NCBI GenBank assembly: GCA_026770585.1
Contig: MU646596.1
Span: 70,942 to 91,850 of the forward strand
Direction: 5' to 3'
Length of the DNA: 20,909 nt
From: Baffinella frigidus
Taxonomy: Eukaryota > Cryptophyceae > Cryptomonadales > Baffinellaceae
The position numbers and the translations under genes are program-made. The notes below the pieces were generated by a model. That model was not told the DNA's origin. It ran no database searches and worked only from the letters and a program-made list of their open reading frames with translations. Positions 3,101-20,909 of this stretch are shown here, piece after piece. Every line of letters begins with the position of its first letter. Positions within the stretch are counted from its first letter, which is position 1.

Positions 3101-5649
3101 CGGTGGTCCGGTCTCTTTCAAGGCCCCCAGAATAGTGAGGTCGCGTGATCAATTTTGCATCTGACAAAGGCGAAGCAGGCCAAACTAAGCGAAATTCAAC
3201 GAGAGTGCTTTCCAAATCAAACATCGTAGTCCACCGTGTGGAACCCTGCACACCACCACCAACCCTCACGGGAGGACCAAATCGTCAATTTTGAAACCTC
3301 AGATTTACCCGGCAGAGGGGTTAGATCTGACCCCTCTGTCAAAGGAAAGCGGCTCCAAAACCTCGTCGGTTTGGTCCGATGGTGAGGGTTTCATAGGCTA
3401 ACGAACTAAAAATGGGGTAGTTAGGCCTACGGTATTGCCTACCGTAGGCCGTAGGGCTCCTATGACCGAAAAGTCCTAGGATCTTGGCCTACATTAGGAG
3501 GTCCTAGGCAATCCCGTAGGCCTAACTACCCCATTTTTGGTCCATTTCCCTATTAGGTTGGTGGCACGCACCCTCTCCGATGGTGAGGGTTGGTGGTGTA
3601 GATCCTCCGGATTTGCGTCTGGAACACCGCGCAGTTTGACCGCCACCGCTGCGGAGCGAGAGAGGGAACAGTCCATCTAAACGTAATCCATAGACCCTAC
3701 GGATCAAACCCGTAGGAACGTAGGGGTGGCACGCACCCTCTCCACGTGATCCGCATACGATTCCATCGGGGTTTGCTCCAGCTCCCCGTCGTCGTTCGGC
3801 CCCCACTCGCTCCAGCGCGTCCACACCTCCCCCGCTTCCAACCTAATCCGGGGACAGGTTTAATGTAAAGGAAAATGGATCCCTATTTGTTCATAGGAGT
3901 TTGACCAAGGTCAATTAGGGCCCTAAGTAAATTTATTTAGGCTTCCAAACTGTCTCAGGAAACCGTGCAGGGATCTCATCCGGGAACACGTTTAATTCGA
4001 AGGGAAATGGCCTATCAAACCGGATTATGGCCCTAATTGGATTTACTTAGGGCCCTAATTGACCTGCGTCTAAGTCCTATGAACAAATAGGGATCCATTT
4101 TCTTTTTCATCAAACATGTCCCCGGATTAGATCGGGGAAGCGCCGGTGGATGATCGCATGGCACGACCGCCCACGCAGGATGATCCGTGGGGGTATTTCG
4201 TGGCTGGTATTTGAGCCATTGGCTGGCATTTGAGCCATTTTGGCACGACCGCGGAAAGCTCGTGTTCTTTCCCGATTGACTTTACAAGTGGTTTCACCGC
4301 GGTCGAACGTTCTCTCTTCGAAACGATTGACTTTCGATTGCGGGTTTTACGTTTCTCGGGTATTTGTACGAGAAGTTGCCCGAAATCGGGCAGCCTGCGG
4401 CGCAAAAAGCCAGCGGAAAGCACGTGTAAAGTCAATCGGGAAGAAATGGTTTCTTCCAGAGTTGGGAGCTGTAGAACCGCTCCCAACCCGGGAAGAACCC
4501 ATTAGTTCTGCTATCTAGCTCGCCTCAGTTCTGCAGTTAAATTGGTCTCATTATTTTCGCAGTCCTATCTGGGCTCGCCATGGGATACATTTAGATTTCA
4601 TCCCACCAGGTATTTGATTTAAATGCTTCGGAGTTCCCCGAATGCACGAAATTTACTACACGAACGCTCGTCCAGGGCTGGACGTGACTGGATTTGGCCA
4701 AGTGTGTAGTAAATTTCGTTGATTCCGGAACTCCGAAGCATTTAAATCAAATACCTGGTGGGATTAGATTGTAACTCCGAACGAAAAGAGTCCAAACGAT
4801 CATCCTACAAGCGTGTGTGGCGGGCCCGGACTTACTCAAGCTGAGGAAGGGTTCAGGGTTTAGGTTTAGGGTTTAGGGTTCAAGGTTTAGGGTTTAGGGG
4901 TTAGGGGTTCGGGGTTAGGGGTTAGGGGTTAGACGTTTGTATCACTCAACTCAAGGCTGAAGGGCCTCATTTAGGACCTGTATCGAGAGTAATAAAGAAG
5001 AAGAAGAGAAGGTTAGGGTTAATGGTTAAGGGTTGAGGGTTTAGTACCATGCGTTGTACTTCCGCACGGAGTCCGCTCGCGAAACCATGTTGAAGCCCGG
5101 CGCCATCGGGATCCGTTCGCCGCGCCAATCGGACCGCATCAAGGGAATGCATGGCGGCGCAGCCGGGCACTCGGTGCCGTTCGATGGCGCGGTGCTGTCG
5201 TTCGCGGCGGGGGCGGCCCACCATGGCGTTTCGGAAGAGGAGTTGGCGGCGGGGCAAAGGGAGAGGTTCCAGAGGGGTTCCGCGGCGTCGAGGAGATCCC
5301 CGATCAAGAACCTTGCTTCGTAGAGGGGATCCCAGGAGTCCCCTTTCTCGCGATCAAAGGCAAGGATTCGGTCGGACGCCCATGTTTCTCGGGTGTCGCT
5401 GTCAGACACTTCCTCCACCCCGGGTGGGGCTCTTCCTCCCCGCAGAGCAAGACGCAGGCCGAGCGGGCGCATCTCGACAGCGGCGCCATGAAGGGCACCA
5501 CGGCGATGAGGCGCCAACATGGCTTGACGCCCGCGCCACAATCGGAGGAGCGATGCCCTCTCAGGCGGAGCTGCTGGGCCGCCGCGGCTCAGGGCAGCGA
5601 TGAGGGCGAGCAGGGCCCCAGCGCGTGGAATCCCCCAGGCCGACCGCAT
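112..5649 (-). CDS. Uncharacterised secreted or membrane-anchored glycoprotein; 4 exons, 3' end outside window
   Basis: Spliced model in transcript order: 5649-5048, 3842-3737, 2460-2356, 154-112 (about 285 codons). The phases (2/1, 0/0, 0/0) agree at all three junctions. The N-terminus has a hydrophobic stretch ALLALIAALSRG (residues about 12-23) after a basic start: signal peptide or signal anchor. Four N-glycosylation sequons follow (N128, N136, N150, N157). The downstream exons are rich in Trp, Tyr and acidic residues, for example VWTRWSEWGPNDDGELE and GWGAIPLRDMARWLRYG. I do not recognise the family; a lumenal or extracellular enzyme is a guess only. It is divergently arranged with the monooxygenase, with 371 bp between start codons. 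The protein continues past position 1. Confidence 0.72.
230..352. mobile_element. Partial CACTG-family inverted-repeat element
   Basis: Starts CACTGCCAGCGAGAATA like the intact element at 19876. The core is a hairpin: 287-305 (gggtcccagacccattata) pairs with 311-328. The opposite CACTG end is not found, so the copy is truncated or rearranged. Confidence 0.6.
409..596. mobile_element. Inverted-repeat element, family G copy 1
   Basis: About 188 bp with ends ccactcgagaatgc / gcattctcgtgtgg. The interior carries cctattta...tgtggggttgtaaa and caacgaaagttactac blocks. Related copies are at 10614-10803 and, inverted, at 17663-17853. No coding. Confidence 0.75.
776..952. mobile_element. Inverted-repeat element, family I (ccaccaaccctcac ends), copy 1
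   Basis: Ends ccaccaaccctcac / gtgaggcttggtgg; inner arms include accaaatcga / cgatttggt and a gagaccccagatctggggtctc palindrome near 870. Other family members, sharing the same end sequence, are near 2032, 3251, 8869 and 13672. Confidence 0.7.
953..1564. repeat. Intron region with a 50-bp direct repeat
   Basis: Direct repeat of about 50 bp: ggggtggatgtcaacattca at 1157 and again near 1470, each followed by cg/tgaaagtggaccacttytgagga. An inverted pair cggtgcctt / aaggcaccg brackets 960-1070. No convincing exon is seen; the open frames here cross repeat boundaries and look fortuitous. Confidence 0.5.
1565..1703. mobile_element. Inverted-repeat element, family L (inverted copy)
   Basis: Ends ccacacggtgggctacgag / gtagtccaccgagtgg; interior ttgacttttgatgaaaggtt. 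Relatives at 9724-9860, 15372-15510 and 20160-20297. Confidence 0.7.
1846..1985. mobile_element. Dispersed repeat, family R
   Basis: Contains ggggaacattc, ggaaacatgccaaaa, ggtcacgttatcc and gcctcccgag; an inverted related copy is at about 16010-16146 and a partial one near 19248-19300. No coding potential is supported. Confidence 0.5.
1990..2340 (-). repeat. Degenerate copies of the exon C 3' end, with a family I element
   Basis: On the minus strand, gaccctggacctgag (about 2000-2014), gacccagaacctgag (about 2204-2219) and gcccctgaacccgag (about 2312-2326) resemble the end of exon C, gatcctgaacctgag|GTACG. In these copies the dinucleotide after GAG is GC, GA and GA instead of GT. Between the first two lies a family I hairpin (2032-2194, ccagccctcacggtttg / caaaccgtgagggttggtgg). 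Confidence 0.6.
2356..2460 (-). CDS. Secreted-protein exon C
   Basis: Exactly 35 codons, phase 0 on both sides. Acceptor accaccgcag|G, donor cctgag|GTACGT (near-consensus). It reads VHEYGVGGYPGTYGWGAIPL then RDMARWLRYGDPEPE. Three degenerate copies of its 3' end with altered donor dinucleotides lie in the next intron (around 2000, 2205 and 2315). Confidence 0.83.
2481..2610. repeat. Simple (TG)n / (GA)n tract
   Basis: About 130 bp of tgtgtg then gagaga/gggaga on the plus strand. On the minus strand it is a CT-rich tract upstream of the exon C acceptor, where it could serve as an extended polypyrimidine tract. Confidence 0.9.
2677..2842. mobile_element. MITE-1 copy 1 (166 bp, 4-bp target duplication gtgt)
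   Basis: A near-perfect hairpin: taatagggcaactgacc..., then aatggggtagttaggcctac and its complement gcctaactaccccatt, loop gactttttggtcctaggatccc, end gttagcctatga. Flanked by gtgt at 2673-2676 and 2843-2846. No open frame, so non-autonomous. Confidence 0.9.
3251..3575. mobile_element. Family I element split by MITE-1 copy 2
   Basis: Left end ccaccaaccctcacggg; inner palindromic gaggggttagatctgacccc. The right end reads ccgatggtgagggtt | MITE | ggttggtgg. Removing the MITE and one ggtt restores gtgagggttggtgg, the complement of the left end. A second ccgatggtgagggttggtgg lies just downstream (3578-3597). Confidence 0.75.
3391..3555. mobile_element. MITE-1 copy 2 (inverted, 165 bp, target duplication ggtt)
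   Basis: Same hairpin as at 2677 but in reverse: begins tcataggctaacg, ends tttccctatta. Flanked by ggtt at 3387-3390 and 3556-3559. Confidence 0.9.
3640..3736. mobile_element. Dispersed repeat, family J (partial)
   Basis: gagcgagag(a)gggaacagtccatctaaacg followed by an inverted accctacgg / cccgtagg pair. Related copies at 9968-10082 and 13860-14003. It lies directly downstream of the exon D donor on the minus strand. Confidence 0.55.
3737..3842 (-). CDS. Secreted-protein exon D
   Basis: 106 nt. The acceptor cggattag|G is formed by the last bases of an adjoining 286-bp inverted-repeat element. It reads LEAGEVWTRWSEWGPNDDGE then LEQTPMESYADHVER; the Trp-rich, repeat-free sequence in one frame only is strong coding evidence. 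The donor gagagg|GTGCGT has phase 0. The donor region is duplicated about 170 bp further on (3562-3581). Confidence 0.75.
3844..4129. mobile_element. 286-bp inverted-repeat element abutting exon D
   Basis: Ends taatccggggacaggttt / aacatgtccccggatta; arms of about 80 nt (ggatccctatttgttcatag and complement, caattagggccctaagtaaa and complement). Its left terminus supplies the AG of the exon D acceptor on the minus strand. Confidence 0.8.
4140..4500. repeat. Intron stretch with inverted repeats
   Basis: cccgattgactttaca (about 4270) pairs with tgtaaagtcaatcggg (about 4424), and gttgggagc / gctcccaac (4462-4484) forms a small hairpin. The rest is unassigned; no exon is supported. Confidence 0.5.
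4596..4768. mobile_element. Inverted-repeat element with arms of about 60 nt
   Basis: tcccaccaggtatttgattt...cttcggagttcc pairs with ggaactccgaag...aaatcaaatacctggtggga; the inner part aaatttactacac / gtgtagtaaattt also pairs. No coding. Confidence 0.8.
4849..5047. repeat. Telomere-like TTTAGGG arrays flanking a dispersed repeat
   Basis: Heptamers at 4849-4935 and 5011-5047, separated by a block (about 4938-5000: gtatcactcaactcaaggct, aggacctgtatcgagagtaa) whose inverted copy is at 10083-10165. On the minus (sense) strand the array begins immediately at the exon A donor. Confidence 0.85.
5048..5649 (-). CDS. Secreted-protein exon A (signal sequence)
   Basis: A 602-nt open block from ATG at 5649, GC-rich and with a signal-like N-terminus. 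Read straight through it would stop two codons later at TAA 5041, inside telomere-like repeat, giving 202 residues. The donor gcatg|GTACTAAACCC at 5047 instead gives a phase-2 join to exon D. The unspliced 202-residue product remains possible. The end reads MAPGFNMVSRADSVRKYNAW. Confidence 0.75.
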
Positions 5650-6020
5650 AACCAGGGCGGCTTGCTTGTAACCCGGTGGTCAAGAATTCACGGCGCCAGG
5701 GCGAAGGGCGTTGAAGTCCAATGGAACGGGAGTCAGGGGGGCGTCGTGGGGGCACGAAACCCCGGCGAGAACCCTGTGGCGCCTCCCATCGACTCCTGAT
5801 CCAGAAAATCCTGGATTGACCCTGGATTTTTTCCCCGGGATGTGGATCAAATCGAGGCTGTCGCTAGAGCCAGTTTCTTCGAGGGAAGGTTCGTATACGA
5901 ACCTTCTCTCAAGGAAACGGCCTGTACTTCAACTTTTGTTTGATCTCCTCTAGCCCACGACAAATTTTTGTCAATTTTTTTAAAAAAAACGAGGCTGCCA
6001 GCAGAGGAGGGGGACCTGCG
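5650..6020. promoter_or_regulatory. Shared upstream region of the two divergent genes
   Basis: 371 bp between the two start codons; it must hold both transcription starts and probably both promoters. No TATA box is convincing. At 5885-5906 there is a perfect 22-bp palindrome (AAGGTTCGTATACGAACCTT plus one G/C pair outside). It sits in a longer imperfect inverted repeat (about 5846-5948, ends gatcaaa/tttgatc), which looks like another small MITE. An A/T-rich stretch (5957-5990) precedes the monooxygenase ATG. Confidence 0.5.
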
Positions 6021-6070
6021 ATGGCGTCCGTGATCATCAGCGGCGGGGGCATCGCTGGGCTGTGCACGAG
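6021..6070 (+). CDS. Monooxygenase exon 1 (N-terminal FAD-binding GxGxxG)
   Basis: Starts at ATG 6021, shortly after an A/T-rich leader, and reads MASVIISGGGIAGLCT, a beta strand plus GGGIAG dinucleotide-binding loop placed at the very N-terminus as in class A flavoprotein monooxygenases. The donor is cacgag|GTGCGC; the codon split there (AG|G, Arg) rejoins exon 2 in frame. Reading straight through would replace the expected helix with unrelated sequence. Confidence 0.85.
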
Positions 6071-9000
6071 GTGCGCGCCAAAGCAAAGAATCACCCACCT
6101 GCGCTCGGGCCCCGTGTCCCCAGCCCAGAACCTTCTGACCTTGTCTCTCTCAGCCCGCTTACCGCTCGCCCTCGCAACCAGGCTCGCGCTCAAGCGCCTG
6201 GGCGTGGCGTCGGAACTAATTGACCTGGCACCGGCGGTCGCGAAGCCCGATCGCGACGAGCCGCTCTTGCTCCTTCCCAACGCCACGAAGATCCTCACGG
6301 CTCTGGGCTTCGCTCCCCTGGTCCTGCCCCGAAGCGCCCCAGCTCAGGCGAGCGCGCGGACTGAGAGTGCGCGTGTGCTCGTCCACGGGGGAATGCGCGT
6401 TCCTGCACGATCAGAGGGGTCATCGTTGTCCCCGCTCGCCCACACCGGACGCCAGCCATACTCTGCGAGCCGACGGATCCCTTGACGCTGCCCATCCCGA
6501 AACCAGGTCGGAAGGTCGCAGTCACTGGACCGCTGGACGATCGTGAATCCCCAGGGGCAGATTCTCGGTGGCGTGGACTTCTCGCGGCTCTCTGAGGAGC
6601 ATGGCGGGGGGTAAACCCTAAACCCTAAACCCTGAACCCTAAACCCTAAACCCTAAACCCTAAACCCTACACCTAAACCATAAACCATAAACCCTGAAGC
6701 CTGAACCCTAAATCCTGAACCCTAAACCCTAAACATTAAACCCTAAACCCTAAACCCTAAACCCCAAACCCTAAACCCTAAACCCTGAACTCTGAACCCT
6801 GAACCTTAAACCCTAAACCCGAAACCCTAAAGCAGGCACCCCACCGTGATGATGCGTTCTAGTGATCTGCTGGTGGCGTTGCTCAAAGCAGGGTCCAACC
6901 CTAAACCCGGAACCCTAGACCCGGAACCCTAAACCCTAAACCCTAAACCCGGAACCCTAAACCCGGAACCCTAAGCCCGGAACCCTAAACCCTAAACCAT
7001 AAACCCCAACCCCAAATTCCAAACCCAAAACCCAAAAACCCAGAACCCAAAACCCAAAACCCAAAACCCAAAACCCGAACCCAAAACCCAAAACCCTAAA
7101 CCCCAAACCCTGAAGCAGGTCCGGCACCAAGGATCCGCTCTGTCCAGTGCGCATGGTGACCGGGCTGCGCTCTCTGGAGCAGCAGCCAGACGCGAGCCTG
7201 CTGGCGTCCTTCACAGGAGCGTCCCTCGCCTCTTGTCCAACCTCCACCCTGGAGGCAACATTAGGGGGATTTTGAACCTCCCAAACCCTCGCACGCGCCC
7301 CTCTCGCTCGCATCCAGGATCCCTGCCTCTTCTTCTTCTTCTTCGTTATTACTCGCAAGCCTGGAGGTGCGTTTCTATGAGCAACCGTTGGGCTAACCCC
7401 CGCACGCACACACCTCTCGTCCACAGCCAGGATGCCTCTGAGTGATCCAAAATTGTGTGAGCCTTACGCTGGGCTGAACCCTCGCACGCACACCTCTCGT
7501 CCACAGCCAGGAACCCTTCTTCTTCGTTATTACTCGCACGCCTGGAGATGCGTGATCGGAGATCAGTGATCCAAACGTCGATGAGTCTTACGTTCCGCTA
7601 ACCCTCGCACGCACACACCTCTCGTCCGCATCCAGGATGCCTCTGAGTGATCCACAATTCTGTGAGCCTTACGTTGGGCTGAACCCTCGCACGCACGTCT
7701 CTCGTCCACAGCCAGGAACCCAGGATCCCTGCCTCTTCTTCTTCTTCGTTATTACTCGCACGCCTGGAGATGCGTGATCCAAACGTCTATTAGTCTTAAG
7801 ATCCAAAAGTCTATGAGCCTATGAGCCTCCAAAAGTCTATGAGCCGTTGGGCTAACCCTCGCACACATCTCGTCCACAGCAAAGATGCCTGCCGCCTCCA
7901 TCGACCTCCTAGTCGGGGCTGACGGGGTGGGGAGCAAAACGCGGGAGTTGCGATGCGGGCCACCCACCTCCGGGGGGGGGGGCGGGGGGGGGGTGAACAT
8001 CGCGTTCCCAGGTGCCTGCTAGTCTCATCGCGAAAGATAACTGAATCAGCTCCCTGATTAGCGTTTTTATTTAATCAGGAGGCCTGATTAAAATTACTAT
8101 GCCCCATCAAATTTCTCCTGTTCAACCTCCTATTGAAAAGGAACTGATTCAGTTATCTTCCGAGGTGAAGTCTGGGCACACAGTCCCGTGTAGGATAGCC
8201 GGAGTGACTTTACAGAATGTCAAGTCGCGCCGGCTATCCTACACAGGACTGCCACTTGAGGCTGGAAAGGGGGGCATTTTAAATGTGGGATTGTAACCTT
8301 TTGTACCAGTCACGGGCGGGGCTTGGTCACGTATCTGCGGGATGTCCCGCAGATACGTGAACAAACGCGATATTTGTGTGAAAATTACGACACGGCGGTC
8401 CACTTGTAAAGGACTTGTAAAGCTAAAACTTTTAAAATACTCAACCAGCGTGAGAGTCCCGCGTGCTCGGCTGTTGACGGATCTTATCCGTGGAAACCTA
8501 TTTTTCTTTCATTTCCTGGCAATGAAAATTACATCACAAACGCTTTAATATTGCTAGCAAGAACGGATTGTGTAATAATTTTCGTTGCCAGGGAATGAAA
8601 GAAAAATAGGTTTCCCTGGATAAAATCCTGGGAGGGGGGTTCCACCCGGGTGGCGGTCAAACTGCGCGGTGTTCCAGACGCAAATTGAAAGTAACATGGT
8701 CTCGTGTTAGATTCGTAAAGTGGCTCGTTCTAGTACAAATAATAAAACTCAAGGGGCTACAAGTCACTTGTAGCCCCTTGAGTTTTATTATTCGTACCAG
8801 AACGTGCTACTTTACGAATCTAAAACGAGATCCTCACACTTTTAAAATCCGGGGGATCTACACCACCAACCCTCACTATCGGACCAAATCGACCAGTTTT
8901 TGGAGCCGCTTTCCTTTGACAGAGGGGTCAGATCTGACCCCTCTGCCGGGTGAATGTGGGGTATTAAAATTGACGATTTGGTCGTCAATTTGGTCGTTAA

Positions 9001-12000
9001 TAAGTGCGAGGGTTAGGTGAACGTTGACGACCAAATCGTCAATTTCTAGGGCGCATCATAACTCCCGTGAGGGTTGGTGGCACGATCGAAGTGCGGCGCT
9101 TCGGAGGGCTGGTTTCTGGAGTGTGCTCTGATCTCAGCATTCTCAGCATGCTGCGCATTCTGATTTATTAGAGATTATTCTCGCCGTTTCGCCAACCCCA
9201 TGCCGTCGCCGAGCGAGGAACGGGGCTGTCTTGGACACTGGTCGGGGGGGCTTGATTCATTAACCGTAAACCATAAACCATAAACCATGACCTGAAACCC
9301 GAAACCCGAAAAACCCAAACCCCAAACCCCAAACCCGGAACCCGAAAACCCCAAACCCCAAACCCCAAACCCCAAACCCCAAACCCCAAACCCCAAACCC
9401 CAAACCCCAAACCAGGGTGGGGGTTTTGGAGCTGGGAGGCGCCTGCGGAAGCCGGTAACCTCCGCATGGATTTTGGGCCCATTTCGGGCCGAGTTTCCGT
9501 TACCTTATCCGTAGGAACCCCCCTATGTCACTACGGATTGCCTACCGTAGGGTCACAGGTCTTACCGCTTAGGGGTTATTCGTCTTATCGCTTAAGGGTT
9601 ATTCGCAGAACCCCCTAAGCATGGCCCTTAGTGGGCCCTGAGTGGGTCCTTAGTGGGTTAAGCTTGATTCGGCGCCCATGGAGTCCCCACCAGGGAGGCG
9701 CTTTCCATTCGGCAGCTGCCACCCACACAGTGGACTACAGACCTTTCATCAAATGTCAACTTACCCTGTGTGCAGTTAACTTTAAGGATTTTCTACTGCA
9801 AATTTGGTCACGTTACCGCTAAATCTAGGGTTCCCGAAACCCTCGAAGCCCACCGTGTGGAGTGGGCTCTTACTGGGTTATTCCACGGAGGGTTTCCCAA
9901 GGCCCGTAGCAGATTATTCCAAGGCCCTTATTGGGGTTTTGTTATTCCAAGACCCTTAGGGGGTTCCGCTGTGGAGCGAGTTTGGCACGAAATCCAACGC
10001 CGAGGTTGGAATTCGACCTTGGCTTTTCCGTAGGGACCCCCTATGTCCCTACGGTAGGGCCTATGGGTTGCGTTTAGATGGACTTCTTCTTCTTCTTTAT
10101 CACTCTCGATGCAGGTCCTAAATGAGGTCCTTGAGCCTTGAGTTGAGTGATACAAAAGTCTATGAGCCTTCAGAAACGGGCCCGCCTCAGAGGCAAGAGC
10201 TGGATGGACTGTTCCCTTCTCGCTCGACAGCGGGGCGTTTCCGCGTTGAAAGTTCAACGCATGGCCCTTGGTAGATTATTCCAAGGCCCTTATTGGGTTA
10301 TGGTTATTCCAAGGCTCTTAGGGGATTATTCCACGTTGAAAGTTCAGCGAATGGCTCCGACTCCCGGAAAAACGGTGTTTAGGCTCCAGGTGTCGTGCCG
10401 ACTCCAAATTAATAGGGTACCGGCCTGAAAATGGGGTAGTTAGGCCTGCGGTATTGCCTAGGACCTCCTACCGTAGGCCGAGACTTTTTGGTCCTCGGAT
10501 CCCTCGGCCTACGGTAGGAGGTTCTAGGCAACGCCGTATGCCTAACTACCCCATTTTCAGGCCGTTGGCCTATGAAAATCCTAAATAACACCTCAAGGGC
10601 CCGGCGTGGCCTGCCACTCGAGAATGCTGGAGGACCCTATTTAAATGTGGGGTTGTAAATATTTGTACCAGGATAACGTAACCAACCTCGTGACTGTGCT
10701 AATTTCGAAGAGTTACGTGACCAACCTCACGAAAGTTACTACACAAATGCCCACATGTAAAAGCAAACGGTTTTTAATAGGCCCCTCTTGCATTCACGTG
10801 TGGTGCCTTAAATAGTCATGTCCCGAATGACCGATATTTAAAAAATAGAGCGATTAAAATAGAAACTCATTTAACTTGGAATGCTAAACATCCATTTCAT
10901 GAATTAAAAGCACATAAACTCCGAAGTGATTATAAAGTATTCATACGTCCAGATTTAGATGAGGGGGCGCACAACGAGGGGAGAGTCCGACGGCCGATGA
11001 CTGATTTCATAGGAAAACAGTTTGAATTTAAAACTTTCCGGCAATGAAATTTACTACACACAATGAGTTTTACTAGTAATATCAAAGCATTCGTGTTGTA
11101 ATTCTGATTGAATCCAATGGTTTTAAATTAAAACCGTTTCCCTATGAGATTTGAGGGATGGTTTTAAATTAAACCCGTTTCCCTTCGAGATTTGAGGGAC
11201 TCTGGCTCAGGAACCCTGGTGAGGACCTCTGGATGACTGGTTTGGGGAACTCCGACCGATGACTGATTTTGAGGAACTCTCGTTACGGAAGCTTGGAGCC
11301 CTGAGGGGCTTTCTTGGGATCTGAAGCGGATCAAATCCCCTTTCTGGGCCTGAAAACGTTCAAATCCTAAAAGGGGCTAAAAGGGGGTGAGCGTAGAGGG
11401 GATTTGGTCCACTGCAGGTCCCAAAAAGCCCCCCAGGGCTGAAAGGTTCCGAAACTAACTCTGGTGCACCTCACAGGGGTTTCAGAAGCGCTGGGGCTGC
11501 ATGCGAACAGGCGAGTCGTGGAGGTATTCCACTGCCAGCCAGGATCTTTTACCTTAAGTCAACAAACCTGATCCTCGGCAGTAAGTTGCCATTTCGTTTA
11601 GATGGACCGGCGCCGCATTTGACTTGAGGCTGTGGTTTTCAGGGGGGGTTGACTTAGGCGAAATGTTCTGGCTCAGAGTGTATTCCCGCAAGACATTCCA
11701 CCCCCGCCAGCAGCTCCCTCCGACCCTTGGAACCCACCACGCCAGAGTCTTGGAAGGGGTTGTCAAACGTCAATTCCTTCTCAAGGCAGTGGTTTTCAAA
11801 CGTCAACAACCGTGTCCTGATACGGTTTAAAAAATCCAACCCCCTCCTGCGCTCTGGCGTGGCAGTCGCTCTTGAGCAAGGAGGGGGGAAACTTCAAGGG
11901 GTTTAAAGACTTTCATCACACCAGAACCACCACTCGAGGCTGGAAAGGGGGGCATTTAAAATGTGGGTGTTAAACTTTGTACCAGTCACGGGCGGGTTTG

Positions 12001-14515
12001 GTCACGTACTCGCTCGAATTCGAGCGGGTTGGGCAAATAACCTGTCTATTTATGTGAAAATTACTACACATCCCTTCACAAGTAAAGGACTTGTAAAGTT
12101 ATTTTTTTTAAAATACACACATTTCTAGCCTCGAGTGGCATGTCCAGATGCTAGCCATGGAGTTTTATTCCGTGGCCCACGCCAGGTCACAAGTTTCTTT
12201 TTCACACACACTCGTTCGCGCTAAAAGTGTTTAGATGGCTTATTGTGGTACTTATTTTGTTAGATCCGGACGTGTTCCGCATGGCAAGAGCTCCAATTCC
12301 CATCACTTTTGGCGTGTTCCCCGGGTTGAATCAACTTTGCTCGAACGAATCATCATTTTACTACACGATCTTGAAAACCGACCTTCTGCCCTGGCGTGGG
12401 AGGTCGCTCGAGAGCTGCAGACAGAGCAGACATAGGCTCATACGCCCTACCGTAGGGCCCTAGGACCTGCCTAGGACCTGTAGGGGGTTCTCCAAGACCC
12501 CCTCGCCACTTAAGGGATGGCCACGAGCGCCCTGCTTTGATGCCAGCCCCGACTACTGGGTGAACGTCGTACTGCGCAATGCTGCCATGGCGACGCGTCT
12601 CCTGAAGAGCGAGGTGCCCTCTCTCTCTCTCTCTCCCACCTCTCCGCTCTCTCTCCCTCTCTCCCTCGACGAGCTTGCCGGCGGCACCTGACCAGCCTGC
12701 CATGGCAGCGAATACCTCCTTGCGTCGCCGCGACGGCAAACAACCACTTTGCCGAAAGTGGTCGATGCGTCCCGTGAGCTCACGGGTCACTCTAATAGGG
12801 AAACGGCCTGAAAATGGGGTAGTTAGGCCTACGGCATTGCCTAGAACCTCCTACCGTAGGCCGAGACTTTTTGGTCCTAGGATCCCTCGGCCTACGGTAG
12901 GAGGTCCTAGGCAATGCCGTATGCCTAACTACCCCATTTTCAGGACGTTAGCCTATGAACTCTGGCGTGGGCGGTCAGACTTGTACCATTGCAACCCTTT
13001 GCCAATCGCGAACGGGCGTTTCGCCCCGTTCAGTTCCTTTAGGTCCCTTAGGTTTTGATTTCTCCCAACATAGCCCAACGACACGCCTTTCCGTAGAAAA
13101 GATTTGCAGAAAAGGCATTTTTTCTTTCCACGCTGGCCCCGCGAAACCAGAGGGCTGGACCCTAGCCTGGTTTCAGGTGTGGGGCACAGGCGTCCCTTCT
13201 TTACATGTCCTTTAAGAAGGATTGGTGGGCCTGGCACTGAAATGACATGTGGCTCCAGGCGGCATCGTTCATCGCCCGTTAGAGTTGCTTTACTCCACAC
13301 AAACGTTTCGCCCGGGGCCCGAGTTGACTACTTCTGCGTCCAGACTCGGATTCTGGGCCGACTCGGGACCATGGGTGCCGCGCGGCACCGCCTTTGTTCC
13401 TACGCTAGACCTGATGGGGAGCAATCGCAAAAGTCAATTTCGACAAATTACCTTCAAATTCTGTCAACTTTTGGAGAAATAGCCGGATTTCCGGCTATTT
13501 TGTGTAAAGGGAGTCGATGAGATTGCCCACACTCAGGTCTAGCGTAGTCTCGGTCTAGGGGGCACGATGCCTCCGGCAACTGAACCAGAAGGCTGAACCC
13601 TAGCTTGGTTTCAGGTGTAGGGGGCAGGCGTGCGGCTTCCAGGTGTGGGGACCAGGCGTCCCTTCCACCAACCCTCACGGCTTGGGCAAATCGACGATTT
13701 TTGATTTCCCGATTTCAAGGGGAATTGGAGCCGTTGAAGTCGGATTCCGACTTGAACCTCCTTGAAATCCCGGGTCGAAAATCGTCGATTTGCCCAAGCC
13801 GTGAGGGTTGGTGTTTTTTTGCATGTATGTGTGGAGGAGGAAGCGCACTCTAAATCCGCTTTCGAGCGAGCTTGGCACGAAATCAAAAGCCAAGGTCGAA
13901 AATCGACGTTGGCTTTTCAGTAGCCCCCCCCTATGTCCCTACGGTTTGGATCCGTAGGGCCTATGGATTACGTTTAGATGGACTGTTCCCTTCTCGCTCG
14001 CCAGCGGACACGTTGCAGAGCTCTCCAGCACTAGGGTTGATTAACACGCGAAATGTTAATTAACATTAACATTTCGCGTGTACCTTGGCAGGAGGTGGAG
14101 TTGAAATCCATCCGGAAAATGCTCGTATGAGCGGCCGACACGGGGTACAGTAAGTGGCACAATGCGTCGAGCATGTGCGGCACTGACGCTGATTGCTTGG
14201 CAATAAATTATCGATCTCGCTTCGCGTGTACCACAAAACACTTTTAGCGCGAAACGTCGCGTTTTGAAATCCCCGCTTGTGACCTGGCGTGGCCCTGGCG
14301 TGGCCCCTATTTTCAGGTGTGGGGGGCGGGCGTGCGGCTGCGGGCGTCGCCGCTGGGAAACAAGGGGGTGCACTTGACTGCGTCCGTGCAGCACCAGCGT
14401 CCGACCCCCCCAGGTCTCTCTCCTTCTCTTGCTCACCCTCTATCTCTCTCCCTCTCTCTCGCCCTCCCTATCTCTCGCCCTACCTCTCTCTCGCCCTCCC
14501 TCTCTCTCGCCCTCC

Positions 14516-14573
<58 letters not shown>

Positions 14574-17500
14574 CCCTCTCCCTCTCCCTCTCTCTCTCAC
14601 CCTCGCTCACCCTCTCCCTCTCCCTCTCTCTCTCTCTCTCCCTCTCGCTCGCTCGCTCGCTCGCTCGAACCTTAAATTTTCGAGGGGGGGGGGGACATTC
14701 GAGAGAAACATCTCAAATCCTCGTTTTGGGCCTTGCGTGGCAGGGAGGACGCACTCGGCAATGGCGGCCGAACTTGCCAAACACCTCGCGCCTCTCGCCA
14801 GCGCACAGGTCGTTATCCGGGGGAGCAGCGTGTTGAAGGAGGCTTAGGGTGTGGGGTTCAGGGTGACCTAGGGTGACCTAAGATGACCTAGGGTGTGGGG
14901 TTCAGGGTTCAGGGTGGCCTAAGGTGACCTAGGGTGTGGGGTTCAGGGTCCAGGGTTCGGCCGAACTTGCAAAACACCTCGCGCCGCTCGCCAGCGCACA
15001 CGTTATCTCAGTACACTGTTAGGGTGAATATTCACCCTAACTCGCCCTAGGCAGGTCCTATTCACCCAAACTCGCCCTAGGCAGGTCCTATTCACCCAAA
15101 CTCGCCCTAGGCAGGTCCTATTCACCCAAACTCGCCTTAGGCAGGTCCTAGGGCCCTACGGTAGGACGTATGATCCTAATCGCCACTTAAGGGATAGGTC
15201 CAAGCCAAACGAGGCCTCCTCGGGAGGGTATTACACTGCCAGGGCGGAGTTGTTGTTTTAGTCAACTCACCTGCGGATGCGTAGTAAAGAAGTCGTTATC
15301 CGGGGGAAACTGTTTTTCTTTCTTTTCCTTTGACAACGAAAGTTACTCCGCAAATGCTTAAATATTACTAATCACGCGGTGGACTGCGAACCTTTCATCA
15401 AAAGTCAACTTGCCTGAAGACAGTCAACTTTTCGGATTTTTCTGATGCAAATTGGTCACGTATCACCCTGGAATCCAGGGTCAACGAAACCCTCGTAGCC
15501 CACCGTGTGGTAAGAACGAATTGTGTGGTAATTTTTGTTGCCAGGAAATGAAAGAAAAATTGGTTTTGGTTCATGTTTATCCGGGAAAACTACAAAATTT
15601 GTTCTTATCAGTAATGTTAAAGCATTTGCGAAGAAATTTTCGTTGTCAGGGAATGAGAGGAAAATAGGTTTCCCCGGATAAGTCTCTCCCTCCGCGTCCA
15701 GCAGCGTGTTGAAGGTGACCTAGGGTGTGGGGTTCAGGGTTTAGGGTTTCGGGGTTAGGGTGTAGGGTTGAGGGGTCGGGGTTCAGGGGTGTCTCTCTAG
15801 CCCCCGGTTAGCCGAGATAACCAATGCAGATCACGGATAACCGTTGATAGAGACGGATTTCGAGTCATGACTCGTCCACTCGTAGGTAGTATGTGACACC
15901 CTAGATTTCGTTGTTGGATGCAATTCCGCAACACCCTCGACACTCGCGATTGTACGGGCGCCCAATAAATCCATGATCTTATGGGTGTCCCATAAATTCA
16001 CGATCCCACTCGGGAGGCTACGAAGCACGTCTTGCCCGGATGTATGGACGTAACGTGACCAAAATCGCTGTCTTTTGGCGTGTTTCCTTAGAAACAATCC
16101 GATAATTAACTTTAGAATGTTCCCCGTAGAGTTCCGAATGGGTACGGCCCAACCATCGCTTCGGGACTTTGGTGATGTAGTCAGGCTGTCACGCTCCCCA
16201 ACTGTAACCAGAAACCCTGAACCCTAAACCCTGAACCCCCAACCCTAAAGCCTAGACCCTAAGCCCTAAACCCTGAACCCTGAACCCCCAACCCTAAGGC
16301 CTAGACCCTAAGCCCCAAACCCTAAACCCCAAACCCCAAAGCCCAAAGCCTAGACCCTAACCCGTCGACTTGACCAGAAACTCTGGACCCTAAAGAGGGC
16401 ATGCAATAAATCCACAATCTGATGGGCGTCCAAGAATCCACCCCAAATCCTGCCCACCAACCCCTAAACCGCTATCGAGGCAATACGGGGTTGATTTAAA
16501 ATCCAGGACTGGAAATCTGGTCTCAGCTTTTCATTTTAAAAGTCCAATTCCCTTAGGATCCAGGTAAAAGTTTTTTAAATCCTTTAAAATTGTGCCACGT
16601 CCTCGAAAATTGTGTCACGTCTTCAAAGTGTGTCACGTCCATTTTGTCACGTCCCCTTCAAAATTGTGTGTCACGTCCTCGGGCTGTCCACAAATCTCCC
16701 TCCGCACAGGCTGCAGCCAGCGGGGGGTGGACCCCAAACCCTCAACGATATACAATAAGCAACACAAACTCGGCGTTAAACCCTAAACCCTAAACTCTAA
16801 CCCCTGCAGGCTGGGGGGGGGGCGAGCGATGTGCCAGAGGGCATAGCGGTCGGCCCGGCGGTTGCGCTGGCTCTCAAGCACGTTGCAGCGGGCTCTGAAC
16901 CCTAAACCCTGAACCGTCCCTAGTCCCTAGTCCCTGATCCTTGGTCCCTAAACCCTGAACCCTGAACCCTAAACCCTAAACCCTAAACCCTGAACCCTAA
17001 ACCCTAAACCCTAAGCCCTAGATCCTCAACCCTCAACCCTCAACCCTAAACCCTAAACCCTAAACCCTGAACCCTGAACCTTGAACCCTAGACCCTAAAC
17101 CCTGAACCCTAAACCCTAAACCCTGAACCATAAACCCTGAACTGTAAACCCTAAACCCTAAACCCTAACCCCCCCGTGTGTTTCCTCTCCGCTGTGCACT
17201 CCGGCTATGTCCAGTGAAATGGCGTGAAATCGAAGGCTCAGCCCACACAGCGGACTACGACGGGATCTTGAGTAACCGCTAGGCGACAAGACCTAGGACC
17301 CTACGGTAGGCAACCCGTAGGGACATAGGGGGTTTCCTACGGATAAGGTAACGGAAACTCAGGCTCTCAGAGCCCGAAAATCCCTTCGAAGCCCTCTGTG
17401 TGGCTTCTCCCGTTTCGAGAACAACCTCGAATTTAACTCGAATTTATCGAATTTAACTCGAATTTAAGGTCTCTCTCGCTCACCAAGCACCCCCCCCACG

Positions 17501-20500
17501 CAGGGCTGGAGGAGGGGGTATTCAAAAGTCATTTTTGAAGGGAAACCTTTCTCAAAAGTCAGTTTTTAGCACAAAAACGGCTCCAAGAACGAGCAAACGG
17601 CTCCAAAAACGAGCACGGAATACCCCACCCAAGGGCCTGGAGTGGCTCTCTCCTCCCCCTCCCCACACGAGAACGCTAGAGGGGCCTATTTAAAACCAGG
17701 GTGCTTAGAAAAGTGGGCATTTGTGTAGTAATTTTCGTTGATTGGTCACGTTACCAGCCATATATTGGCCAGTCACGAAGTTGGAATACCTTGTCCTGGT
17801 ACAAATATCTACAACCCCACATATAAATAGGGCCCTCTAGCATTCTCGAGTGGCCCACACAGCGGACTGTGAAGGTGTTTCGTGAATAACCCACACATGG
17901 ATAAGCCATGAGACTCTACAGCACGCAATCCGTAGGGACCGCTGCTGAGCGAGGACGTGATTCCATTTTAAAGGATTTAAAAAACTTTTACCTGAATCCT
18001 GAGGGAAATGGACTTTTAAAATGGAAAAGCCACGACCAAATTTCCGGTTCTGGCCTTTAAAATGAACCCCCAGTTGCCTCGATGGCGGATAATGTCAACC
18101 CCCAGTTGTCTCGATAGCGGATAGGACATCCGTATGAACAACCCTAAACCCTAAACCCTGGACCCTGGACCGTAAACCCTAAACCCTAACCCCCCCGTAT
18201 GTTTCCTCTCCGCTGTGCACTCTACGGCAGGCTATTGGACGCCCATCAGATCGCAAATTTGTTGCATGCCCCCTTTAGGGTTCAAGGTTTCGGGTTAGTT
18301 ACGGCAGGCAAGAGGGGCATAGGATTGTTCATACGGATGTGCTAACCGATTCTCGGTGGATCAGCCACCGAGAACCGCAAATTCCCAACCCCAAACCCCA
18401 AACCCCAATCCCCAAACCCCAAACCCCAAACCCCAAACCCCAAACCCCAAACCCCAAACCCCAAACCCCACACCCCAAACCCCACACCCCAAACACCAAA
18501 CACCAAACACCACACCCCAAACACCAAACCCCTCTCCCGCAGAACGCAAAACGCTCCCGCCTGACGTTAGTCAGGCAGTACCCCCCGCGCGGTTCAGGGC
18601 GCGAAGCGCGGTTTAGGGCACTTCGCGCCCTAAACCCTAATCCCCAAACCCCAAACCCCAAACCCCAAACCCCAAACCCCAAACCCCAAACCCCAAAACC
18701 CAAACCCCAAACCCCCGCAGAACGCAAAACGGTCCTGCCTGACGTTCGAGTACCCCCCGGTACTCGAACCGCTCCCGCCTCACGCGCTCCGCGCCCCACA
18801 GGGGAGGGGGGGTACCGAATCGACGGCGGCGTATTCCCATCTGAACCCCAACCCCTCTCCCGCAGAACGCAAAACGGTCCCGCAGAACGCGCTTCGCGCC
18901 CTAAACCCCAAACCCCAAACCCCAAACCCCAAACCCCAAACCCCAAACCCCAAACCCCAACAGAACGCAAAACGCTCCCGCCTGGCGTTTGAGTACCCCC
19001 CGGGCGTCTCCCTCCCCTCGTCTTCGTACCCGGCGGCGTTCCCCGTAGCGCTCCTCGGGGACGCGGCGCACGCGATGCCCCCGACGCTCTTTCAGGTCCA
19101 CACGAATGAATGGACGTTTTAGGGATAAATGGACGTTTTAGGGATAAATGGACGTTTTAGGGGTTTGTGGGGAAGAATAAATCGACGGTTTAGGGGGGAG
19201 GGGGGGGTGATCACGTTTCAGACCGAAAAGCGATCGGAAACGTGATCAGTTGCTGACTTTTGGAGTGTTTCCTGGGCAATATTCCCATGATTGACTTAAG
19301 AATCTGTTCACAAGGGTAGTCTCGTGTGGGTTCTCCCTCTCTCTCCGCCTGATTTTCATCTCGAAAGATAACTGAATCAGTTCCCCAATAGCGTTTTCAC
19401 TTTAATTAGGAGACCTGATCAAATTTACTATGCCCTAACTAATTTCTCCTGTTTAACCTCCTATTGAAAAAGAACTTATTCAGTGATCTTCCGAGATGAA
19501 TTTGCTGGCGCTCGTTTGGCGAGACGGGGCTCTTTTTCACACAACGCGACGGATTTGTCCCCTCGTGGAGCCATTTCTGATTTCAGCCATGGGCCCCTTC
19601 TTGAAGCCATTTCTAACACGTGTTCTTGGAGCCATTCCTAGCGCGGAAAATTCCTGGAGCCATTCCTAACACGGAACATGGCTTCTTGGAGCCATTTCTA
19701 AGTGTTCTTGGAGCCATTTCTAACACGTGATGGGGAAAAAACGGCAGGGCCCCGCTCTGGCGCTAGAGGACGCGTGGACGCTGGTGGAAGCGGTGGTGGT
19801 CAAGGACGAGAGTGGCGCGGGGGCGCTCCTGCGCGGGGCGCCTCTCAGCAGGTGCGTTCTTCTTCTTCTTTATTACACTGCCAGCGAGAATATTTCGTGA
19901 AGGACGTGGAGACCCCTTTAAAAGACTATAATGGGTCTCAGGCCCATTATAGTGTTTATAATGGGTCTGAGACCCATTATTATGTTTTAAAGGGGTCTTT
20001 TTCTGCGAAATGTTCTCGCTGGCGGTGTATTACTCTCGATACGTGGAAGCGGTGGTGGTCAAGGGCGAGCGCGGCGCGGGGGCCCTCCTGCGCGGGGCGC
20101 CTCTAAGCAGGTTCGTTCTTCTTCTTCTTCTTCTTTATTCCTCTCGATGCAGGTCCTAACCACACAGTGGACTACGGACCTTTCATCAAAAGTCAATTTA
20201 CCCTGTAGGCAGTTCACTTTTAAGGGTTTTCTCATGGAAAATTGGTCTCGTTGCCGCTAAATCTAGGGGTCCCGAAACCCATTCCCACACAGCGTGTTAC
20301 GCAGGGATTGTCGACGCATGGGCGCACGTTCGCCACGCAGGGCTCGAGGGGAGGGTATTCAAAAGTCAATTTTTTAAAGGAAAACGGTATTCAAAAGTCA
20401 TTTTGGGGGGAAACGGCTCCAAGAACGCACAAATAGCTCCAAGAACGCACATGGAATACCCCACCCAAGGCCCCACTACTGCAAAGCCACAGAGGAAGTC

Positions 20501-20758: not shown

Positions 20759-20808
20759 GTTACCCTCAACCCTCAACCCTGAACAAGCATAAAAGTGCAA
20801 GGTTGCCT

Positions 20809-20895
<87 letters not shown>

Positions 20896-20909
20896 ACCAT
20901 CAACAACCA
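20759..20909 (+). repeat. CCCTCAA array starting at the exon 13 donor
   Basis: gttaccctcaaccctcaacc, a short copy of the exon edge (acaagcataaaagtgcaag|gtt), then an almost pure CCCTCAA heptamer run to the window end. Confidence 0.9.

Follow-up and report, generated by a model that had tools for sequence, protein, structure and literature searches.

Introns 3 and 4 of a FAD-dependent monooxygenase gene of Baffinella frigidus are C-rich telomere-type arrays from donor to acceptor, and they are not isolated: they belong to a recurring class of array introns in this alga. We consider it probable (roughly 0.65) that both are spliceosomal introns whose whole bodies consist of degenerate (CCCTAAA)n, and that introns of this class arose when telomere-type DNA was inserted at breaks in coding sequence and was then spliced out. 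The evidence consists of the array bodies, their fit with reading frame and homology, a bias in strand, the presence or absence of array introns among paralogues and, in some introns, repeats at the borders.

Structure of the monooxygenase gene

The window, i.e., the whole stretch of DNA analysed (20,909 bases, GC 0.529), corresponds to positions 70942–91850 of a 479,849-base contig (C292), and its arrays thus lie inside chromosome sequence. The plus strand carries the monooxygenase gene, for which 14 exons have been placed so far (6021 to 20758) and whose joined translation is open throughout. The joined protein is matched by Pfam FAD_binding_3 (PF01494, 6.2e-08), and NCBIfam models of related FAD hydroxylases match it at scores under their curated cut-offs.

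The exons and introns described here are all on the plus strand. Exon 1 (MASVIISGGGIAGLCT; 6021–6070) was placed by homology to the protein P0001 and by the gene model, exon 2 (6182–6320) by homology to P0001 and P0002, and exon 3 (ending in LDRWTIVNPQGQILGGVDFSRLSEEHGG; 6507–6610) by homology to P0001. Intron 3 (6611–6835, 225 nt, phase 2) is followed by the 57 nt exon 4 (HPTVMMRSSDLLVALLKA; 6836–6892) and by intron 4 (6893–7118, 226 nt, phase 2). Exon 5 (7119–7234) again has homology to P0001; its 3′ end is a prediction, P0001 having a gap of six residues at the exon 5/6 junction. Exon 6 (DLLVGADGVGSKTREL; 7880–8011) was located by sequence comparison, exon 11 (16810–16890) by the protein P0003, and exon 12 (GDAAHAMPPTLFQ; 18964–19095) by P0003 and PF01494.

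Besides introns 3 and 4, the window holds 14 array segments, eight of them C-rich and six G-rich on the plus strand. One (9262–9413) ends 2 nt from the acceptor of intron 6 (8012–9415). Intron 11 (16891–18963) has an array at either end, the two being separated by other sequence, and at the start of intron 14 (20759–20904) array segments begin 3 nt inside the donor and continue almost to the end of the window.

A minus-strand ORF (5041–5679) is divergent to the monooxygenase gene and, judged by eye, begins like a signal peptide. The array at 5013–5044 begins at the end of this ORF and is C-rich on its strand. The ORF has no Pfam match, and its gene orientation was therefore not used as proof. 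Many self-complementary (foldback) elements of about 70–330 bp are found in the introns and upstream of the monooxygenase gene, among them those at 2677–2842, 3833–4142, 8700–8845, 12793–12958, 13666–13813 and 19871–20032. The foldback at 13662–13808 also occurs in the B. frigidus protein P0128 (80% identity over 49 aa, E 2e-21). Rfam and tRNA scans found nothing.

Array bodies of introns 3 and 4

The earlier note had placed the two introns and the exon between them at the positions given above, had described the introns as CCCTAAA-type arrays from donor to acceptor and had joined exons 3-4-5 in phase 2, all of which holds. GT stands at 6611 and at 6893, the corresponding AGs end at 6835 and 7118, and the frame is restored across both introns. 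Sense C-rich array covers 97–98% of intron 3 and 96% of intron 4. Their scores against (CCCTAAA)n, 178 and 141, lie far above the maxima of 500 shuffles each (21.3 and 21.2). The arrays are degenerate (CCCTAAA occurs as a perfect unit 13 times in intron 3 and eight times in intron 4), so that no pure telomere captured in a single step can be seen in them; intron 4 also contains local runs of CCCGGAA and CCCAAAA units.

On the sense strand each of the two introns has one GT, that of its donor, and on the antisense strand the counts are 30 and 29. Folding predicts no structure for the RNA of intron 3 (MFE 0 kcal/mol), and the RNA of intron 4 folds no better than shuffles (z −0.71). As candidate branch-point motifs, CTAAA or CTGAA words are found at −9 and −23 in both introns, none of which fits yTnAy within the last 60 nt.

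The earlier note had also considered that one intron was copied to make the other, which could have happened by intron transposition or segmental duplication. The two are equal in phase and orientation, nearly equal in length, and similar in their AAGCAG acceptors. However, the order of their units is no more alike than that of shuffled units (116 of 300 score as high), and intron 3 reaches a local score of 155 against the longer array of intron 11 but only 129 against intron 4, making a copy highly improbable. Equal length, previously taken as a sign of shared origin, looks like coincidence, given that nine delimited array introns of this genome range from 121 to 563 nt.

Evidence for splicing

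P0001 (325 aa, JGI source) shows 64% identity to the first joined query over 185 aligned residues. Aligned with the full gene model, it is free of gaps over residues 1–149 of the joined protein, which hold junctions 1/2 to 4/5; its gaps fall within exon 6 and at the junctions of exons 5/6 and 7/8. The exon 4 peptide, which the earlier note had described as conserved, was looked for in this homologue and is present there (TAAVVMRSNDLLSAMLKA), and its gap-free alignment over junctions 3/4 and 4/5 supports the view that the flanking introns are genuine. Reading through intron 3 gives a stop at the first codon, and reading through intron 4 gives one after 11 codons. A second protein, P0002, from what we take to be the cryptophyte Hemiselmis, is 38% identical to the window monooxygenase.

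In no frame does the tail of P0001 significantly resemble exon 10 or 11; its source may thus be cDNA or genomic DNA, and P0001 was dropped as an intron-free genomic relative. No relatives of P0001 were found among viral contigs.

P0003 (267 aa, from a 914-bp contig) is identical to the joined exons 6–14 in 212 of 213 residues, the sole mismatch being its first residue. It crosses eight junctions, including that of intron 6, and runs on beyond the start of intron 14. An open frame over eight junctions in a contig of 914 bp means that P0003 must derive from spliced RNA. At three of its junctions (introns 6, 10 and 11) arrays lie within 6 nt of the splice site, and these array-adjacent sites are thus used. 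The monooxygenase gene is very likely expressed. As P0003 starts in exon 6, we infer the excision of introns 3 and 4 in RNA from frame and homology; both are probably genuine introns, spliced as drawn.

The donor of intron 11 (16890/16891) is GG in the window sequence (GCAGCG/GGCTCTGAACCC), yet P0003 joins exactly there; this may be an allele difference, an error or an unusual donor. The start of exon 12 (AACGCAAAACG) occurs four times (18543, 18721, 18866 and 18964), and the first three copies degenerate further on and adjoin arrays. Intron 13 contains a copy of the 3′ half of exon 13 (20043–20117) and intron 10 a copy of part of exon 10 (14957–14998), both of which are absent from P0003.

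The arrays of introns 3 and 4 might instead stay unspliced, the locus being a pseudogene, the assembly faulty or the protein truncated. Such a reading could point to the late start of P0003 and to the GG donor, but it is very hard to maintain: reading frame, homology and the order of motifs are kept across 14 exons, P0003 agrees almost residue for residue over exons 6–14, and the same array-intron design recurs in kinases.

Array introns elsewhere in the genome

The assembly to which the window belongs (G000) has 382,457,362 bases in 1,364 contigs. For Baffinella CCMP2293, values of 53.9% GC, 534.5 Mbp and 41.1% repeats have been reported (PMC9756366). Of 17 random stretches of the genome, three contained all the readable bases (17,519), and about 2,875 of these are in arrays.

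Kinase genes were sampled through 31 gaps between neighbouring PF00069 exon matches, chosen from 108 matches. The gaps were picked by hand, according to contig, strand and profile order, shorter ones first and blind to arrays, and represent part of all possible pairs. In 18 of the 31 gaps (three of the 18 are mutual paralogues) C-rich array predominates on the coding strand, in no gap does the reverse predominate, and the other 13 have no array. In array bases, the kinase gaps contain 6895 sense C-rich versus 375 antisense and the monooxygenase gene 1715 versus 160, both counts being taken within genes. When introns 3 and 4 are left aside, arrays in the window gene are not significantly nearer to splice sites than shifted ones (5 of 23 sites, reached by 568 of 5000 shifts).

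Array introns were delimited in five of the 31 gaps (on contigs C32, C662, C63, C180 and C789). The seven introns obtained there, together with window introns 3 and 4, make up the nine delimited array introns. Six of the seven are 95–98% array; the other, intron 1 of C662, was kept despite a score-based cover of 58%. Five of the kinase introns have GT donors, that of C180 (L054) has GC and intron 3 of C63 (L067) has GA. These GC-AG and GA-AG borders hint at relaxed donors in this genome. A further array at a kinase border (L055, on C4) was left out of the nine, as by eye no GT-AG placement keeps the frame. Across the nine, GT occurs 0–4 times on the sense strand and 12–66 times on the antisense strand. 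They have only the heptamer in common, and near-identical element copies were not seen among them. A translated array region matches five proteins of B. frigidus, P0128 among them, the only eukaryote named among the matches listed (120 of 177).

Heptamers of this kind are also found in other DNA. Three IMG/VR contigs classed as viral (L001, L004 and L005) carry TTTAGGG in perfect runs of some 15 copies. Viral contigs with CCCTAAA arrays were rejected as relatives of the window, with which they have only the repeat in common among the BLAST matches listed. In P0202, P0238 and P0242, CCCCAAA-type arrays seem to be translated, and the contigs appear bacterial (two are named Burkholderia pseudomallei); such heptamers are therefore not restricted to eukaryotes.

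Presence and absence among kinase paralogues

The three kinase paralogues differ in their array introns: C32 has intron 1 only, C662 has introns 1 and 2, and C63 has introns 2 and 3. Each of the three sites is uninterrupted in at least one paralogue. C662 and C32 are 85% identical over 462 aligned coding bases, and C63 is 76–77% identical to these two over 226–230 bases. Intron 2 of C662 is a 121-nt array, and C32 reads through its site without an indel. Intron 3 of C63 is a 450-nt array at a site that is uninterrupted in both C32 and C662, and C63 in turn reads through the site of intron 1. These differences point to repeat insertion as a source of new introns. Some of the absences may instead reflect intron loss, so that either polarity would be compatible with the comparison; as C32 and C662 are the closest pair, intron 2 needs either a loss or a second gain.

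Intron 1 is found at the same position in C32 and C662, where it measures 563 and 128 nt, respectively, indicating that arrays also change length in place. This difference would be in keeping with an alternative in which older, ordinary introns had been invaded or replaced by telomere-type arrays grown by slippage, the arrays not having created the introns. The abundance of arrays in the random stretches, their occurrence inside longer introns and the runs of variant units in intron 4, a mark of slippage, fit that explanation as well. Against it stand the clean, uninterrupted paralogue sites, and the near absence of any non-array remnant from six of the seven kinase introns and both window introns. 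Overall, we regard invasion of pre-existing introns as rather unlikely.

Border repeats

At intron 3 of C63, the two borders share an exact 11-bp repeat (CAGCATGCAGG); among random border pairs anchored on AG, about 0.1% have 11 or more in common. Intron 2 of the same contig has AGGTCG on both sides, which is weak when taken alone (6 or more in 9.7% of random AG-anchored pairs). In the window, the borders of intron 4 (AAGCAGGGTCC / AAGCAGGTCC) form a 10/11 repeat. Its score is equalled in 0.6% of random GT/AG pairs, and two of 156 mismatched intron pairs reach it as well. The borders of intron 3 have only AGCATGGC/AGCAGGC, no better than other introns. In total, non-array border repeats of at least 6 nt were found in three of the nine delimited array introns.

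A similar arrangement is seen, at the protein level only, in P0232, in which an array lies between two LEMLQ copies inside one aminotransferase domain. Removal of the array and one LEMLQ lifts the Aminotran_5 score from 21.1 to 34.3 bits and carries the match over the joint, from residues 1–68 to 1–96. Both P0232 and the 11-bp repeat of C63 speak against the view that arrays invaded older introns. Among array-bearing proteins (94 of the 120 matches listed, of 177), a flank repeat of at least 4 aa was found in one of 118 arrays with both flanks, many of which are probably not coding.

The Iwr1-domain protein P0207 (JGI) reads ...MSDIG/KPQTPNP...KPQ/LSDSDDSNAE, compatible with a whole-array intron starting GTAAACCCC. 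Its domain score changes from 26.1 to 29.0 bits without the array, in a query that was also trimmed at its start. By eye, intron 2 of C63 (L067) shows two extra copies of its acceptor and exon start.

Origin of the array introns

The course of events that we favour would begin when a break in coding sequence, frequently at or close to AG/G, takes up telomere-type DNA. A staggered break would duplicate the target, placing one copy by the donor while the other supplied the acceptor AG; the AG/G(T) of the duplicated target would then give both the exon end and the acceptor. The insert would subsequently be spliced out. Mainly inserts with the C-rich strand in sense would persist, since GT is almost absent from that strand, AG is infrequent in it, and it folds little or not at all. 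Being almost free of GT, it would present few false donors, leaving the spliceosome with one donor and a C/A-rich tract ahead of the acceptor. The reverse orientation would offer GT in nearly every unit together with a quadruplex-prone RNA, G-rich RNA of such repeats being expected to form quadruplexes. Later slippage would alter the length and unit type of an array, and foldback elements could enlarge the intron, as may have happened in intron 11. The inserts presumably stem from telomeres or telomerase, and selection on splicing, favouring splice silence, may be the cause of the strand bias.

Capture of telomeric DNA at a break followed by splicing, as the earlier note had proposed, is thus the best-supported origin. 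It rests on the border repeats and on sites without an intron elsewhere in the genome, in the kinase paralogues. Given the small number of border repeats, the degeneracy of the arrays, possible intron loss, strand counts taken within genes alone and the non-significant proximity of arrays to splice sites in the rest of the window gene, invasion of older introns is a serious rival.

The arrays might also be transposons of the introner type, mobilized by a transposase, that happen to consist of telomere-type units. Border repeats of 6–11 bp in some introns, insertion at AG/G, the existence of several copies in genes and presence or absence among paralogues are all features that such elements would produce. 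Terminal inverted repeats or hairpins are found in many introner families, and some families lack them. RNA folding of introns 3 and 4 did not reveal an end-to-end hairpin, and the lengths of the nine introns are not fixed; transposase-moved elements are therefore a very improbable source.

Comparison with known systems

Insertion at breaks has a precedent in mammalian interstitial telomeric sequences, which were inserted in double-strand break repair; Nergadze et al. (2007, PMC2246262) list target duplication for 6 of 130 such sequences in rodents and 4 of 25 in primates. The Baffinella arrays resemble these in being telomere-type repeats inside chromosomes at presumed breaks, some with a possible target duplication, but differ in that they make up entire introns of coding sequence in several genes, almost always with the C-rich strand in sense. 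In Daphnia, 33 neointrons have short direct repeats of 4–12 bp at opposite ends (PMC4202315). The border repeats described here are similar to those of this staggered-break intron gain, whereas the insert is a telomere-type array; the word stem 'telomer' is absent from the main text of the Daphnia paper.

Introners, known from diverse lineages, create introns by insertion, often with target duplication and with many copies in one genome (Gozashti et al. 2022, PMC9860276; for Amoebophrya, PMC7789003), but in the array introns folding shows no hairpin at the ends, and a fixed element is absent. The terms cryptophyte, Baffinella, Guillardia, telomer and tandem are missing from the main text of PMC9860276. 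In amphioxus, 'mirage' minisatellites consist of tandem copies of an intron end and exon start (PMC3087553). Border copies of this type are present at exon 12 of the window and at intron 2 of C63, although the mirage unit is the border itself, while the unit of the Baffinella arrays is a telomere-type heptamer. Introns can also be gained by transposon insertion or tandem duplication at AGGT proto-splice sites (reviewed in PMC3443670). Intron 2 of C662 and intron 2 of C63 are comparable in having AG/GT on both sides, but the insert is array DNA and not a transposon or exon copy.

A search of the full-text literature, with subscription papers mostly outside its scope, showed no report of introns made of telomere repeats among the papers listed, as judged by title and start of abstract. 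In the favoured reading, intron gain by insertion, a process already known, has an unusual source, telomere-type arrays, and a clear orientation filter.

Implications

A broader proposition, which we put forward tentatively and regard as possible though doubtful, is that the insertion of telomere-type DNA, by telomerase or as fragments captured at breaks, is a main and continuing route of intron gain in this lineage, that only inserts with the C-rich strand in sense survive, and that a large share of its introns are spliced-out telomere repeats. The source of new introns is a long-standing question, and few clear sources have been caught in the act. Whole-intron inserts of telomere type, differences between paralogues and a strong strand bias make intron gain testable in Baffinella: the sequence itself gives access to the source DNA and target site as well as to border duplication and the splicing filter. 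If true, an origin by insertion would link chromosome-end maintenance or break repair to gene structure.
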